Below are positions 21,389 through 25,883 of a stretch of DNA of 64,000 nucleotides, one piece after another; the stretch's first letter is position 1, and every line of letters begins with the position of its first letter. The notes below the pieces were generated by a model. The model saw only the letters and a list, made by a program, of their open reading frames with translations. It did not search any database and was not told the DNA's origin. Position numbers and translations under genes: made by a program. Source of the stretch: Acidimicrobiia bacterium. Its GTDB lineage: Bacteria; Actinomycetota; Acidimicrobiia; Acidimicrobiales; MedAcidi-G1. The stretch covers positions 1 to 64,000 of the forward strand of contig DUCC01000002.1 in NCBI GenBank assembly GCA_012959995.1, written 5' to 3'.

Positions 21389-22024
21389 CTAATTGACAAT
21401 GACCTTGACATGCGCAGTCACCACTCGGGTGCTTTGGGAGCCGCTATCACCGGCTAACCAGTGGCGTCGACACCGCAACTCATACGTCACTTGCTGATTA
21501 TCGGGTTTGTCGACCACCATCAACGTGCCATCGTAAACCTGCACCCCATCTACCAATCGAGCGTTATGGGTAGCGCGGGTCCCGCACCAGCAACGGGCCT
21601 CAACTTGTACCTCTACCGATTCATCAGCCAATTCAAGCAAACGCTGGGTTCCTTCAAAAAGCACCCCTTGAAAAGAAGTCAACAAACCGAAGGCGTACAC
21701 ATCTGTATTGAGTTCATCAACCACGCGGGCCAATTGCTCAATTTGTTCCGGCCGGTAAAACTGCGCTTCGTCGCAGATCACATAGTCCAAACCGGCAGCA
21801 CGGTCGCTCATGGCTACCGCGAGTTCAAAAAGGTTGAGCAGCGGCCCCACCTCTACCGCATCGGCCGAAACCCCAAGGGCACTTGACACTTTTCCGTCCG
21901 CTCGATCCAACTGACTGCACAGCAAGCCTTGAAGCCCCCGAGAAGCCAAATTGTGGTGGATTTGCAAAGCCAGAGTGGACTTACCAGACCCCATGGTTCC
22001 AAAAGAAAACCGCAGAACAGCCAT
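21389..22024 (-). CDS. tdk: Thymidine kinase
   Basis: 211 residues from the ATG at 22024, overlapping the nrdJ stop by one base (TAATG); the longer frame from 22108 lies inside nrdJ. Walker A GTMGSGKST near 8-16, the Asp-Glu-Ala-Gln-Phe (DEAQF) Walker-B/lasso segment near 85, and zinc Cys pairs CWCG and CRRH in the C-terminal part. It phosphorylates thymidine for salvage. The coupling to a ribonucleotide reductase makes one dNTP-supply operon. Confidence 0.93.
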   Translation of the reverse strand: MAVLRFSFGTMGSGKSTLALQIHHNLASRGLQGLLCSQLDRADGKVSSALGVSADAVEVGPLLNLFELAVAMSDRAAGLDYVICDEAQFYRPEQIEQLARVVDELNTDVYAFGLLTSFQGVLFEGTQRLLELADESVEVQVEARCWCGTRATHNARLVDGVQVYDGTLMVVDKPDNQQVTYELRCRRHWLAGDSGSQSTRVVTAHVKVIVN

Positions 22025-24789
22025 TAAGAGCACCCACTGGTGGAGCCACAATCGATACACACGTAGCACGACCCAGCGCGTTGCATCGCTACCCCGCATT
22101 GCATGCACATGGGGGCATCTTGCGAGGGACGCATGCTCATTTCGGCCGCCAACTGCGAAGCCGAGGGCACGCTTGGCGGGTCGGCCGGTACTTCAGAGCC
22201 TTGGAGGGTGGCCGTGGCGGATTCCATCACTCCCGGCAAGGTTTGCTGGGTACGTTCACCAACCGTCAAAATGTTGAGTTCGGCACGTTCTTCAGCGCTG
22301 AGGTACTCCACGGCCAAACGGCGGAAAAGATAATCAATGATGCTTGAAGCGATACGCAAATCTGGGTCGTCGGTCATCCCCGCCGGTTCAAAACGCATAC
22401 CGGTAAAGGCCTCAACATAGGCCCGCAACGGCACGCCGTATTGCAAGCCGTGACTCAATGAGATGGCAAAAGCATCCATGATGCCGGCCATGGTGGAGCC
22501 CTGTTTAGAGACACGGAGAAAAATCTCGCCCGGTCGGCCATCTTCGTACTCACCAATGGTGGCCCACCCTTTGCAATCCGCTACCCGAAACTCGAAGGTA
22601 CGAGAAACCCGAGTACGAGGCAGTTTGCGCCGGACCGGTTCAGCCAGTGCAGCGGCAAGGTTTTCGGCCACCGTGGCTGGGGTTGATGCATCTTTACCGG
22701 TAGAAAGCGGCTGGCCCAGCTTGCAGTTATCACGATAAATAGCTACTGCTTTTAGCCCGAGTTTCCATGACTCAAGGTAGAGCTCTTCTACTTCGTCAAC
22801 GGTTACTCCTTCGGGCATGTTGCAGGTTTTAGAAATAGCGCCCGACAAAAACGGCTGCACCGCTCCCATCATGCGTACATGACCCAGGTGGTGAATGAAG
22901 TTGTCGCCCATTGAGGTAGCGAACACTGCTTGGTGGTCTGCGGAGAGTTCCGGGCAACCGGTCACCGTTTGGTTTTCATCGACAAACGCCGTGATGGCTT
23001 TTACCTGATCTTCGTCGTACCCCAAGTGGGTAAGAGCTCGCGGAATTGTTTGGTTGATGATGGACATGGTTCCGCCGCCTACCAAGCGCTTCATTTTGAC
23101 CAAACTAAAATCTGGTTCGATTCCGGTGGTGTCGCAATCCATGAGCAAACCGATAGTGCCGGTGGGGGCCAGCACCGTGGCCTGGCTGTTTCGTACTCCC
23201 ACTCGTTGCGCCAAAGCGCAGGCCTCGAACCAGTCTTCTCGACCGGCCGCAACCAAATCTTCAGCAACCCCGTCGTCAAGCAACTCGGCGGCTTCACGAT
23301 GCTGATCAAGAACCTTCAACGTGGGCTCTCGGTTGGTTTCAAAACCTGCAAATGGTTCTAAACGGTCGGCGATGCGAGCCGAAGTACGGTAAGCGTGGCC
23401 GGTCATAAGCGAGGTCAGCGAAGCCGCTACTGCACGGCCTTCGTCGCTGTCATAAGGCAAGCCCAAAGCCATAAGCAAAGCGCCAAGGTTGGCGTAACCC
23501 ATGCCCAACTGGCGGAAGTCTCGGGTGGTTTCGCCAATGGCTTCGGTCGGGTAGTCAGCGTTAGAAACCAAAATGTCTTGAGCGGTGAACACCAGTTCTA
23601 TGGCGTGGCGAAAGCCCTCAATGTCAAATGCTTCGATGCCGGCTTCGAGGTCAGAATCGTCGAGAAAAGTCATGAGGTTCAGGCTGGCCAAATTGCACGC
23701 CGAGTTATCTAAATGAACATATTCGCTGCATGGGTTGCTGGCCGTAATGGGGCCGGTGTTAGAAGCGGTGTGCCAATGGTTAATGGCGGTATCGAATTGC
23801 AAACCAGGGTCGGCGCATTCCCAAGCGGCTTCAGACATTTGGCGAAAGAGCTGGCGGGCTTTAACGGTTTCGATTACCGAGCCGTCGGTGCGAGCGGTGA
23901 GGTCCCAGTCGCCGTCGGCTTCTACGGCTTCCATGAAAGCATCGGTTACCCGCACGGAGTTGTTGGCGTTTTGAAACTGGGCCGAGTGAATGTCTTTGCC
24001 GTTCAGGCTCATGTCAAAGCCTGCGGCCTCCAAGGCTTTGATCTTGTGTTCTTCTTTGGCTTTGCACCAAATGAACTCTTCAATGTCAGGGTGTTCGGCA
24101 TCCAAAATAACCATTTTGGCGGCCCGACGGGTTTTACCTCCGCTTTTGATGGTGCCAGCCGAGGCATCGGCACCCCGCATAAAGCTGACCGGACCGCTGG
24201 CTTCTCCTCCACCTTTAAGAATCTCTCGTGAGGAACGAATACGGCTGAGGTTTACCCCCGCACCGGAGCCACCTTTAAAGATGGTTCCTTCTTCGACATA
24301 CCAGTTCAAGATGGAACTCATTTGGTCATCAACCGACAAAATGAAACAAGCCGAAGCTTGCTGAGGAACGCCTGCTACCCCGATGTTGAACCAGACCGGC
24401 GAGTTGAAAGCCGCCCGCTGGTTGATGATGAGGTACTTGAGTTCCTCAGAGAAAACAGTTGCTTCTTCTTGATCTTCGAAATAACCGTCTTTGAACCCCC
24501 ATGCGGTGATGGTGTCAACCACCCGATCGGCTACCTGGCGAAGCGAAGATTCTCTTTCTTCGGTGCCTACCGTGCCCCGAAAATATTTCTGAACCAAAAT
24601 ATTGGTGGCGTTTACCGACCAATCAGAAGGCACTTCAATACCGAGTTGTTCAAAGGCCACCGAACCATCACGGTGATCGACAAGCCGTGCGTCTCGGGTG
24701 TCCCATTCGATGGAATCGTAGGGGTGGGTATCGGGTGAGGTGAAATGCCGCTTGAAGCCCAACACTCCTCGGTCTGTTCCTACTGTCAT
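22024..24789 (-). CDS. nrdJ: Adenosylcobalamin-dependent (class II) ribonucleotide reductase
   Basis: 921 residues. N-terminal part with the substrate-binding FNSPVWFNIG near 130, allosteric/active-site segments with Cys in ASACFILSVDD, and the long fingerprint EGTIFKGGSGAGVNLSRIR near 170. The radical Cys region is NPCSEYVHLDNSACNLASLNL, and the C-terminus has a zinc-ribbon-like tail CMQCGVAMQ...CYVCIDCGS carrying the redox cysteines. It makes deoxyribonucleotides without oxygen, using B12. Start ATG at 24789 with TAGGAA five bases upstream. No nrdR, nrdAB or nrdDG is in the window. Confidence 0.96.
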   Translation of the reverse strand: MTVGTDRGVLGFKRHFTSPDTHPYDSIEWDTRDARLVDHRDGSVAFEQLGIEVPSDWSVNATNILVQKYFRGTVGTEERESSLRQVADRVVDTITAWGFKDGYFEDQEEATVFSEELKYLIINQRAAFNSPVWFNIGVAGVPQQASACFILSVDDQMSSILNWYVEEGTIFKGGSGAGVNLSRIRSSREILKGGGEASGPVSFMRGADASAGTIKSGGKTRRAAKMVILDAEHPDIEEFIWCKAKEEHKIKALEAAGFDMSLNGKDIHSAQFQNANNSVRVTDAFMEAVEADGDWDLTARTDGSVIETVKARQLFRQMSEAAWECADPGLQFDTAINHWHTASNTGPITASNPCSEYVHLDNSACNLASLNLMTFLDDSDLEAGIEAFDIEGFRHAIELVFTAQDILVSNADYPTEAIGETTRDFRQLGMGYANLGALLMALGLPYDSDEGRAVAASLTSLMTGHAYRTSARIADRLEPFAGFETNREPTLKVLDQHREAAELLDDGVAEDLVAAGREDWFEACALAQRVGVRNSQATVLAPTGTIGLLMDCDTTGIEPDFSLVKMKRLVGGGTMSIINQTIPRALTHLGYDEDQVKAITAFVDENQTVTGCPELSADHQAVFATSMGDNFIHHLGHVRMMGAVQPFLSGAISKTCNMPEGVTVDEVEELYLESWKLGLKAVAIYRDNCKLGQPLSTGKDASTPATVAENLAAALAEPVRRKLPRTRVSRTFEFRVADCKGWATIGEYEDGRPGEIFLRVSKQGSTMAGIMDAFAISLSHGLQYGVPLRAYVEAFTGMRFEPAGMTDDPDLRIASSIIDYLFRRLAVEYLSAEERAELNILTVGERTQQTLPGVMESATATLQGSEVPADPPSVPSASQLAAEMSMRPSQDAPMCMQCGVAMQRAGSCYVCIDCGSTSGCS

Positions 24790-24911
24790 AGTGTTCCTAT
24801 TCTTTCAAAAAGTTTTATTGTTATTTCTCTGTTGCTCGCCGCGACCAGAGGGGATCTTCACCTTAGAGCCAATACCCCTACTTGTCGGCCATACCAAAAA
24901 AGATGCGGTCG

Positions 24912-25031
24912 GCGACGGGAGACCCAGGTCAAAGACTGTTCTTAAGGCTCCTTTAAGGGCCCCCATCCGAGCCTTAACATCAGCTCGGTTCGAAGAACCC
25001 GCCGATGCGTCATGCCGGAATCTCCCGTCGC
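24912..25031 (-). promoter_or_regulatory. Structured leader RNA of nrdJ (candidate nrdJ-motif element)
   Basis: On the minus strand three nested elements fold. A closing stem of 11 perfect pairs, GCGACGGGAGA (25031-25021) with TCTCCCGTCGC (24922-24912). Inside, P2 pairs CATCGGC (25007-25001) with GCTGATG (24984-24978), including one G-U that would be an A-C mismatch on the plus strand. P2 caps in GGTTC-TTC-GAACC (24999-24987). P3 pairs TTAAGGCTC (24977-24969) with GAGCCTTAA (24950-24942). P2 and P3 abut, giving a three-way junction. A T6 run lies about 12 bases after the closing stem, and nrdJ starts 122 bases downstream. I recall a published cis-regulatory nrdJ RNA motif; identity with it is unverified. 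Confidence 0.75.
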
Positions 25032-25136
25032 TGATCGCTACCCCTACAGTACGGAACTTCCCCTGTGGATTGAAAGAGGTAAATCTTGTGGAAATCGGAG
25101 AAGTTCTCCACAGCCTTAACAAGATACGGTTTAGGC

Positions 25137-25883
25137 ATGCGACAGCTCCTTCCGCCCGGCGAAGACCAAAACCCGCTTGACGTCTACGACCAACCCCGCC
25201 CAACCCCCAATAACCGGCCCTGGGTAATGGCCAACATGATTTCTTCTTTGGATGGGGCAATTAGTGTGCGCGGCACCTCGGGTGGTTTGGGGAACCCTGC
25301 GGATCAAAAAGTTTTGGGCATCTTGCGCTCGCTGGCCGACATCATTTTGGTGGGCGCCGGCACGGTGCGTGCCGAGGGGTACCGACCACCTCGCACCCCG
25401 CACCCCGAAGCAGCCCAACGGCGAGTAGCCCGCCATCAAGCGCCCCGAGCCCGTTTGGCCGTGGTGACCGGCCGTGGCGACCTGGACTCGCAGGCCGCGC
25501 TTTTTGCCGACCACCCACCTGAAGACCCGTTGCCGCTTATTTTTACCACGAGCCATGGGGCGGCCGCTCTGGGTGAATCTTTTGTTGGGCGGGCAGAGGT
25601 AGTGGCTTTGGCTGGCCCACGGGTTGACCCAGATTTGGTCATGGAAGACTTGCACCAACGAGGGGCCGGCATTGTTTTGAGCGAAGGAGGACCCTCGCTT
25701 AACCATCAGTTGGTGGCCGCTGGGTTGGTTGATGAACTTTGCTTGACCGTGGCCCCGTTGCTGGTTGGCGGCGAGGGGCCGGGCCTTATCAACGGGCCGA
25801 TACTGGAAAGCTTGGAAGAGTTTGAACTGGCGGGATTGACCACCGAAGCCGGTTTGCTGTTCTGTCGTTACCTTTCGGCCTGA
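25137..25883 (+). CDS. RibD C-terminal reductase domain protein
   Basis: 248 residues from the ATG at 25137. It has the RibD C-terminal (dihydrofolate-reductase-like) fold: VMANMISSLDGAIS near 35-48, the Gly-rich cofactor loop IILVGAGTVRAEGY near 75, and LSEGGPSLNHQLVAAGLVDELCLTVAP in the C-terminal half. No deaminase domain is present. In riboflavin synthesis such a domain reduces the ribosylamino-pyrimidine; many actinobacteria have extra copies of other function. The rib genes of this window lie far away and contain no ribD, so a riboflavin role is possible but not shown. Divergent from nrdJ, with the leader RNA between them. Confidence 0.85.
   Translation: MRQLLPPGEDQNPLDVYDQPRPTPNNRPWVMANMISSLDGAISVRGTSGGLGNPADQKVLGILRSLADIILVGAGTVRAEGYRPPRTPHPEAAQRRVARHQAPRARLAVVTGRGDLDSQAALFADHPPEDPLPLIFTTSHGAAALGESFVGRAEVVALAGPRVDPDLVMEDLHQRGAGIVLSEGGPSLNHQLVAAGLVDELCLTVAPLLVGGEGPGLINGPILESLEEFELAGLTTEAGLLFCRYLSA

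Follow-up and report, generated by a model that had tools for sequence, protein, structure and literature searches.

A conserved leader RNA upstream of nrdJ in Acidimicrobiales: a candidate for a new gene-control switch

Gene organisation at the nrdJ locus

The window analysed here is a stretch of 64,000 nucleotides (positions 1 to 64,000 of contig DUCC01000002.1, assembly GCA_012959995.1) from a bacterium of the order Acidimicrobiales. It carries nrdJ and tdk on the minus strand; an intergenic region of 350 nt separates nrdJ (24789-22024) from a divergent ribD-like reductase gene (plus strand, ATG at 25137). The genes and promoter elements of the locus are as follows.

21389 to 22024, minus strand: tdk, thymidine kinase; its start codon shares one base with the nrdJ stop (TAATG)
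22024 to 24789, minus strand: nrdJ, B12-dependent ribonucleotide reductase (NF005122, 1381 bits against a cut-off of 859); the gene presumed to be controlled
25046 to 25051, minus strand: TACTGT, a TANNNT-type -10 element whose position is conserved across family and order
25064 to 25112, minus strand: conserved, DnaA-box-like TCCACA repeats (25112-25107, inverted; 25093-25087; 25069-25064)

Known feedback regulators of ribonucleotide reductase (RNR) are proteins (NrdR, ATP cones) and a few RNA elements. NrdR (TIGR00244) was not found in the window's own genome, which is 96.7% complete and encodes two RNRs, a class I enzyme (G000:C10:82976) and NrdJ. The same genome has a genuine RF00174 cobalamin riboswitch (G000:C26:166477-166622) ahead of a btuF/btuC-like uptake operon; the class I RNR locus has no RF00174 element.

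Structure of the leader RNA

A structured RNA lies in the intergenic region, upstream of nrdJ and on the same strand. Its parts, in the direction of nrdJ, are listed below.

24905 to 25038, minus strand: structured leader RNA, a three-way junction (fold z -5.4; covariation; 98.6 bits with model R2, which was trained on this RNA)
25015 to 25038, minus strand: P1, 5' strand, with a bulged C at 25017 (partner 24905-24927)
25007 to 25014, minus strand: J12, CAUGACGC, unpaired in the family-wide fold (comparative alignment)
24979 to 25006, minus strand: P2 stem-loop (25006-25001 / 24984-24979) with a nested hairpin (two-sided changes at 3 pairs)
24971 to 24978, minus strand: P3, 5' strand, GUUAAGGC (A-U to G-C double changes between genera at two pairs)
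24943 to 24976, minus strand: alternative hairpin UUAAGGCUC/GAGCCUUAA, genus-only and mutually exclusive with P3 (genus alignment)
24928 to 24936, minus strand: P3, 3' strand, GUCUUUGAC; a single U, at 24932 or next to it, is bulged (comparative alignment)
24905 to 24927, minus strand: P1, 3' strand, starting CUGGGUC (comparative alignment)
24896 to 24901, minus strand: six-T run 3' of P1, a possible terminator tail, in the window's genus only (sequence)

The helices described in an earlier note on this DNA are all present on the minus strand: an 11-bp stem (GCGACGGGAGA, 25031-25021, with UCUCCCGUCGC, 24922-24912), a 7-bp stem with G-U pairs (CAUCGGC/GCUGAUG), the 9-bp UUAAGGCUC/GAGCCUUAA stem abutting it, and a nested GGUUC/GAACC hairpin. 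Two of them have to be read differently. The 11 bp of the closing stem are confirmed, but the comparative fold extends P1 to about 23 pairs; the 9-bp inner stem is real in the sequence, but it is conserved in the window's genus only and competes with a family-wide P3.

The minimum free energy fold of a 151-nt minus-strand stretch reaches -73.2 kcal/mol (z = -5.4), and none of 200 shuffles was as good. The plus strand also folds well (z = -5.6); the strand is therefore undecidable from energy alone, and comparison between species is required.

Conservation in genus and family

Seven further species of the window's genus have the same gene order and leader, at 73-95% DNA identity; in all but the closest species, similarity ends at the end of the element. 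The 142 structured columns of the genus alignment contain no gaps, and RNAalifold finds two-sided changes at 8 pairs. The element thus occurs between the ribD-like gene and nrdJ in eight species of this genus and, in a diverged version, in 13 genomes of a second genus (g4), where the nrdJ leaders were spotted by eye and matched by the first-genus model.

The joint alignment of both genera (A2, 21 sequences) gives a common architecture, in which a P1 of about 23 pairs is followed by an 8-9 nt J12, by P2 and by a P3 (GUUAAGGC/GUC(U)UUGAC) that bulges a single U. P2 adjoins P3 and P3 adjoins P1; the 3' strand of P3 continues directly into a conserved GACCUGG. J12 reads CWGRAACC in g4 and AUGGUGGC in other families. 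The compensatory changes that the earlier note asked for in homologous leaders are found, with two-sided changes at 20 of 37 pairs (13 of 24 in P1) and in 98 cells, against 36.6 in shuffled alignments and 16-30 with the partner strand slid. The note's reading of the RNA in the nrdJ direction, drawn from a G-U pair that is A-C on the other strand, is likewise borne out, because G-U cells outnumber A-C cells on the nrdJ strand by 115 to 18 in the family; a further count gave 165 to 21.

That these repeats arose by chance, or act at the DNA level with no role as RNA, has a negligible probability. The plus strand does fold equally well by energy, but this reading is refuted by covariation, and the G-U bias to one strand, the slide control, the conserved single-stranded core and the order-wide occurrence described below all speak against it. 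Fold and covariation together support a structured three-way-junction RNA ahead of nrdJ-tdk, and a conserved RNA in the nrdJ orientation can hardly be doubted.

In the window's genus alone both folds of the P3 region are compatible with the alignment, and the 9-bp hairpin has the lower energy. In g4 the family-wide P3 is retained, with A-U pairs exchanged for G-C, and this hairpin is not. The 9-bp hairpin was accordingly rejected as the conserved P3 and kept as a genus-level alternative; only the other P3 covaries in g4. The two folds may form in turn as a switch.

In the two genera, 8/8 and 15/16 genomes respectively carry the element in a single copy, as found with model R2. All matched sequences that were checked lie before nrdJ; in the 16th genome the nrdJ match is cut by a contig end. 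Weak R2 matches elsewhere in the order (L069-L074) have no nrdJ nearby and were treated as chance. The carriers are Acidimicrobiales, mostly uncultured marine and groundwater actinobacteria ("marine" being taken from isolate names).

The element is absent from two genera of the family in which ribD, nrdJ and tdk are ordered in the same way, and nrdJ itself is missing from one genus. The suggestion that tdk is the partner of the RNA therefore does not hold, since nrdJ-tdk also occurs in those two genera, whose leaders lack it. Nine leaders of genera g3 and g6 (L016-L020, L025, L031, L033 and L034) have the same promoter and no RNA. A TGTCAC-N11-TANNNT element, present instead or in addition, is common to g4 and g6.

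Occurrence across the order

For other families of the order, 73 nrdJ leaders were read for their layout. Related elements stand before nrdJ in many of these families, which was confirmed with a second model, R3. The order-type layout begins with a promoter (TCCACA, about 15 nt, TANNNT), followed by CGG-A(A)UGGUGG, P2 (CGUC/GACG), CUCC-UUGGGGG, a variable P3, and then CYCYUGACCUG and P1; its conserved core is CGG-AUGGUGG / GACGACUCCUUGGGGG / ACCUG. The position of the element after the conserved promoter is constant in 27 leaders.

At E<=0.001, R3 matches 43 of the 248 genomes of the order, and nrdJ lies downstream on the same strand at all 30 order loci inspected. Outside the order R3 has no match at E<=0.001; weak ones (E 0.006-0.0075) have no nrdJ nearby, and R3 matches L200-L202 were treated as chance, like L069-L074. 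In the order alignment (A4) two-sided changes occur at 24 of 29 pairs; the 159 cells involved compare with 47 after shuffling and 29-49 after sliding. Fitting A4 to the model biases this count toward the structure, but the slide control is still exceeded by a wide margin.

The window shares with the order type a P1-closed junction (CGG.../...ACCUG), a bulged-U P3, TANNNT directly 5' and nrdJ downstream. It lacks the order-type J12 GGUGG / J23 CUCC core, having CAUGACGC and no J23. The window itself has no R3 match; a close relative (L002) scores 17.8 bits (E 0.17) at the correct place, and L119 bridges the window type to another family, with an R2 match before nrdJ (E 0.0013). Since J12 and J23 differ from the order type, the window type is called a divergent variant; the links that join it to the order-wide element are the common position, CGG/ACCUG, the bulged U, L119 and L002.

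In L055, L058, G026, G040 and G044 the nrdJ frame is interrupted by about 1 kb after residue 355-370 and stays open; these interruptions are likely to be inteins.

Promoter, linker and possible output

Transcription would start at the conserved TANNNT promoter, just 5' of P1 and a few bases before it. The TCCACA cluster occurs in all nrdJ leaders of the family, upstream of and overlapping this putative nrdJ promoter; replication-linked control via the cluster is possible. DnaA regulation through the repeats was set aside as mere resemblance.

At one locus (L154, genome G059) the RNA and nrdJ are separated by a perfect GC-rich terminator with a T6 tail (-34 kcal/mol), placed about 20 nt ahead of the start codon. 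As these 20 nt between terminator and SD/start leave no room for a promoter, nrdJ there needs read-through. This terminator, from one family, and the U run after P1 in the window's genus suggest regulation at the level of transcription termination. No terminator is seen in most lineages, and a terminator scan of the window was negative, the six-T run after P1 not being called. L154 has no convincing antiterminator, and competition between P1 and the terminator was not seen in folding. Sequestration of the SD by the 3' strand of P3 looked plausible by eye, but Shine-Dalgarno pairing ranks at chance level (median rank 0.22). The small upstream ORFs of the linker were also rejected; their peptides, read by eye, are not conserved.

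The linkers from RNA to nrdJ measure 70-435 nt, and in many families a second promoter, accompanied by NrdR-type boxes, follows the RNA. In the order-type leaders L105, L098 and L107 paired NrdR-type boxes, CACATCTTGTGG ... CCACAAGACCTAGTGG, come after this second nrdJ promoter (TTGACA..TGTAATT), whose -35 abuts the end of the RNA in some order-type leaders. NrdR-type boxes occur in 19 of 73 order leaders, at the second promoter 3' of the RNA in the examples read, and are absent from the nrdJ leaders of the window's family.

A stand-alone small RNA encoded beside nrdJ, and ended by P1 and the U run in the window's genus or by the L154 hairpin, would account for these terminators and for the second promoter between RNA and nrdJ in many families. 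It is nevertheless improbable: there is no confident match away from nrdJ, the L154 terminator sits so close to the SD/start (about 20 nt) that nrdJ must be read through, and several linkers are only 70-115 nt long. From its position the element is very probably a cis-acting leader, which is supported by its strict association with nrdJ, the fixed promoter spacing and the read-through terminator of L154.

The leader might instead be bound by a protein, NrdJ itself or an RNA-binding regulator, acting (autogenously) at the junction on translation or decay with no small-molecule ligand. The strict one-gene association, the conserved core and the want of a common terminator or SD platform agree with this; the long conserved unpaired strands and bulged U resemble a compact binding pocket instead, and no candidate binding protein was identified. 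Protein binding is rather unlikely.

Predicted function and ligand

The leader is probably a new cis-acting RNA, predicted to be a riboswitch-like sensor of RNR status. Two features expected of a riboswitch are found here, a conserved and covarying leader structure and a tie to a single regulated pathway. That it is a small-molecule riboswitch is predicted with reasonable though modest confidence. In the proposed mechanism, the first ~140 nt of the nrdJ(-tdk) mRNA would fold into a three-way junction with a long P1, a short P2 and a bulged-U P3. The helices follow from covariation; P3 would presumably stack directly on P1 around the unpaired, conserved J12. Because this unpaired core is conserved, its most likely role is to bind a small molecule indicative of RNR status, and binding would stabilise P1/P3 and change nrdJ expression.

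Taken as a whole (a cis-acting nrdJ(-tdk) leader, a core binding an RNR-status molecule and an output on nrdJ), this reading is judged slightly better than even. Three observations stand against it: no expression platform is common to the lineages; linkers of 70-435 nt and second promoters with NrdR-type boxes are unusual for a simple riboswitch; and nrdJ lacks the element in two genera of the same family.

NrdJ requires adenosylcobalamin, and since the gene is B12-dependent, the RNA could be a new type of adenosylcobalamin sensor that matches nrdJ expression to cofactor supply. This is quite doubtful, as there is no match to RF00174, RF01482 or RF01689 and the element is not found at B12 genes, where the genome uses RF00174. 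B12 is also the less likely ligand because a normal RF00174 element precedes the B12-uptake genes of this genome and none occurs at the class I RNR locus.

A deoxynucleotide is the first guess, made tentatively, because the element is confined to nrdJ, a separate cobalamin riboswitch serves B12 uptake in this genome, and NrdR was not found there. Such a signal is attractive given the NrdR-free genome and family leaders without NrdR-type boxes; NrdR is a dATP-sensing repressor. It is conceivable, if less than even in likelihood, that a new Acidimicrobiales riboswitch class senses a deoxynucleotide or other readout of RNR activity and controls the class II RNR. If true, an RNA would replace the dATP sensing of NrdR in lineages without NrdR.

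For marine actinobacteria that seem to have no NrdR in their genomes, the leader would offer a regulator. An uncatalogued conserved leader tied to nrdJ alone provides a defined RNA, with sequences from many families, for tests of dNTP or cofactor sensing.

Relation to catalogued RNA families

The window (E<=10), the g4 leaders and the order-type leaders are all without a match in Rfam 15. The proposal that this is the known nrdJ RNA motif fails: neither the nrdJ RNA model RF03034 (threshold 40.3 bits) nor the Cobalamin model matches in 24780-25150 at E<=10. The RF03034 model works on Streptomyces-type loci as a positive control, and the RF00174 model (threshold 31.5 bits), which leaves the window unmatched, has its positive control elsewhere in the same genome. 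The view that the leader is not a cobalamin riboswitch stands, as the window has no match to RF00174, RF01482 or RF01689. Membership in RF03034 or the cobalamin families is ruled out by the Rfam models and the layout of RF03034. No description of the leader was found in open-licence literature, which is weak evidence of absence.

RF03034 is listed in PMC8079986 as an RNA-seq-validated cis-regulatory element before nrdJ. The Streptomyces element and the leader are both structured RNAs upstream of nrdJ in Actinomycetota, with one copy per genome. In contrast to the closed three-way junction of the window, RF03034 spans 80 nt and consists of two tandem hairpins with an ACAGACA..ACACCG linker, absent here, and other conserved sequence; in the genomes searched it occurs almost only in one family of the Streptomyces type. 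We know of no proven ligand for it.

RF00174 and RF01482 are, like the leader, multi-helix leaders of a gene of B12 metabolism. They do not match it, and the true RF00174 copy lies elsewhere, before the btuF/btuC-like genes.

The 2'-deoxyguanosine riboswitch, a variant of the purine riboswitch, is a three-way junction associated with an RNR gene. Both it and the leader are three-way-junction leaders. A 2'-dG-sensing mRNA element is reportedly the subject of PMC12268651, which also refers to ribonucleotide reductase. Unlike that riboswitch, the leader has no Rfam purine match and has two abutting helices, one long J12, and other stems and conserved letters. Conserved through compensatory changes, always placed ahead of nrdJ and matching no catalogued family, the leader RNA is a good candidate for a new gene-control switch.
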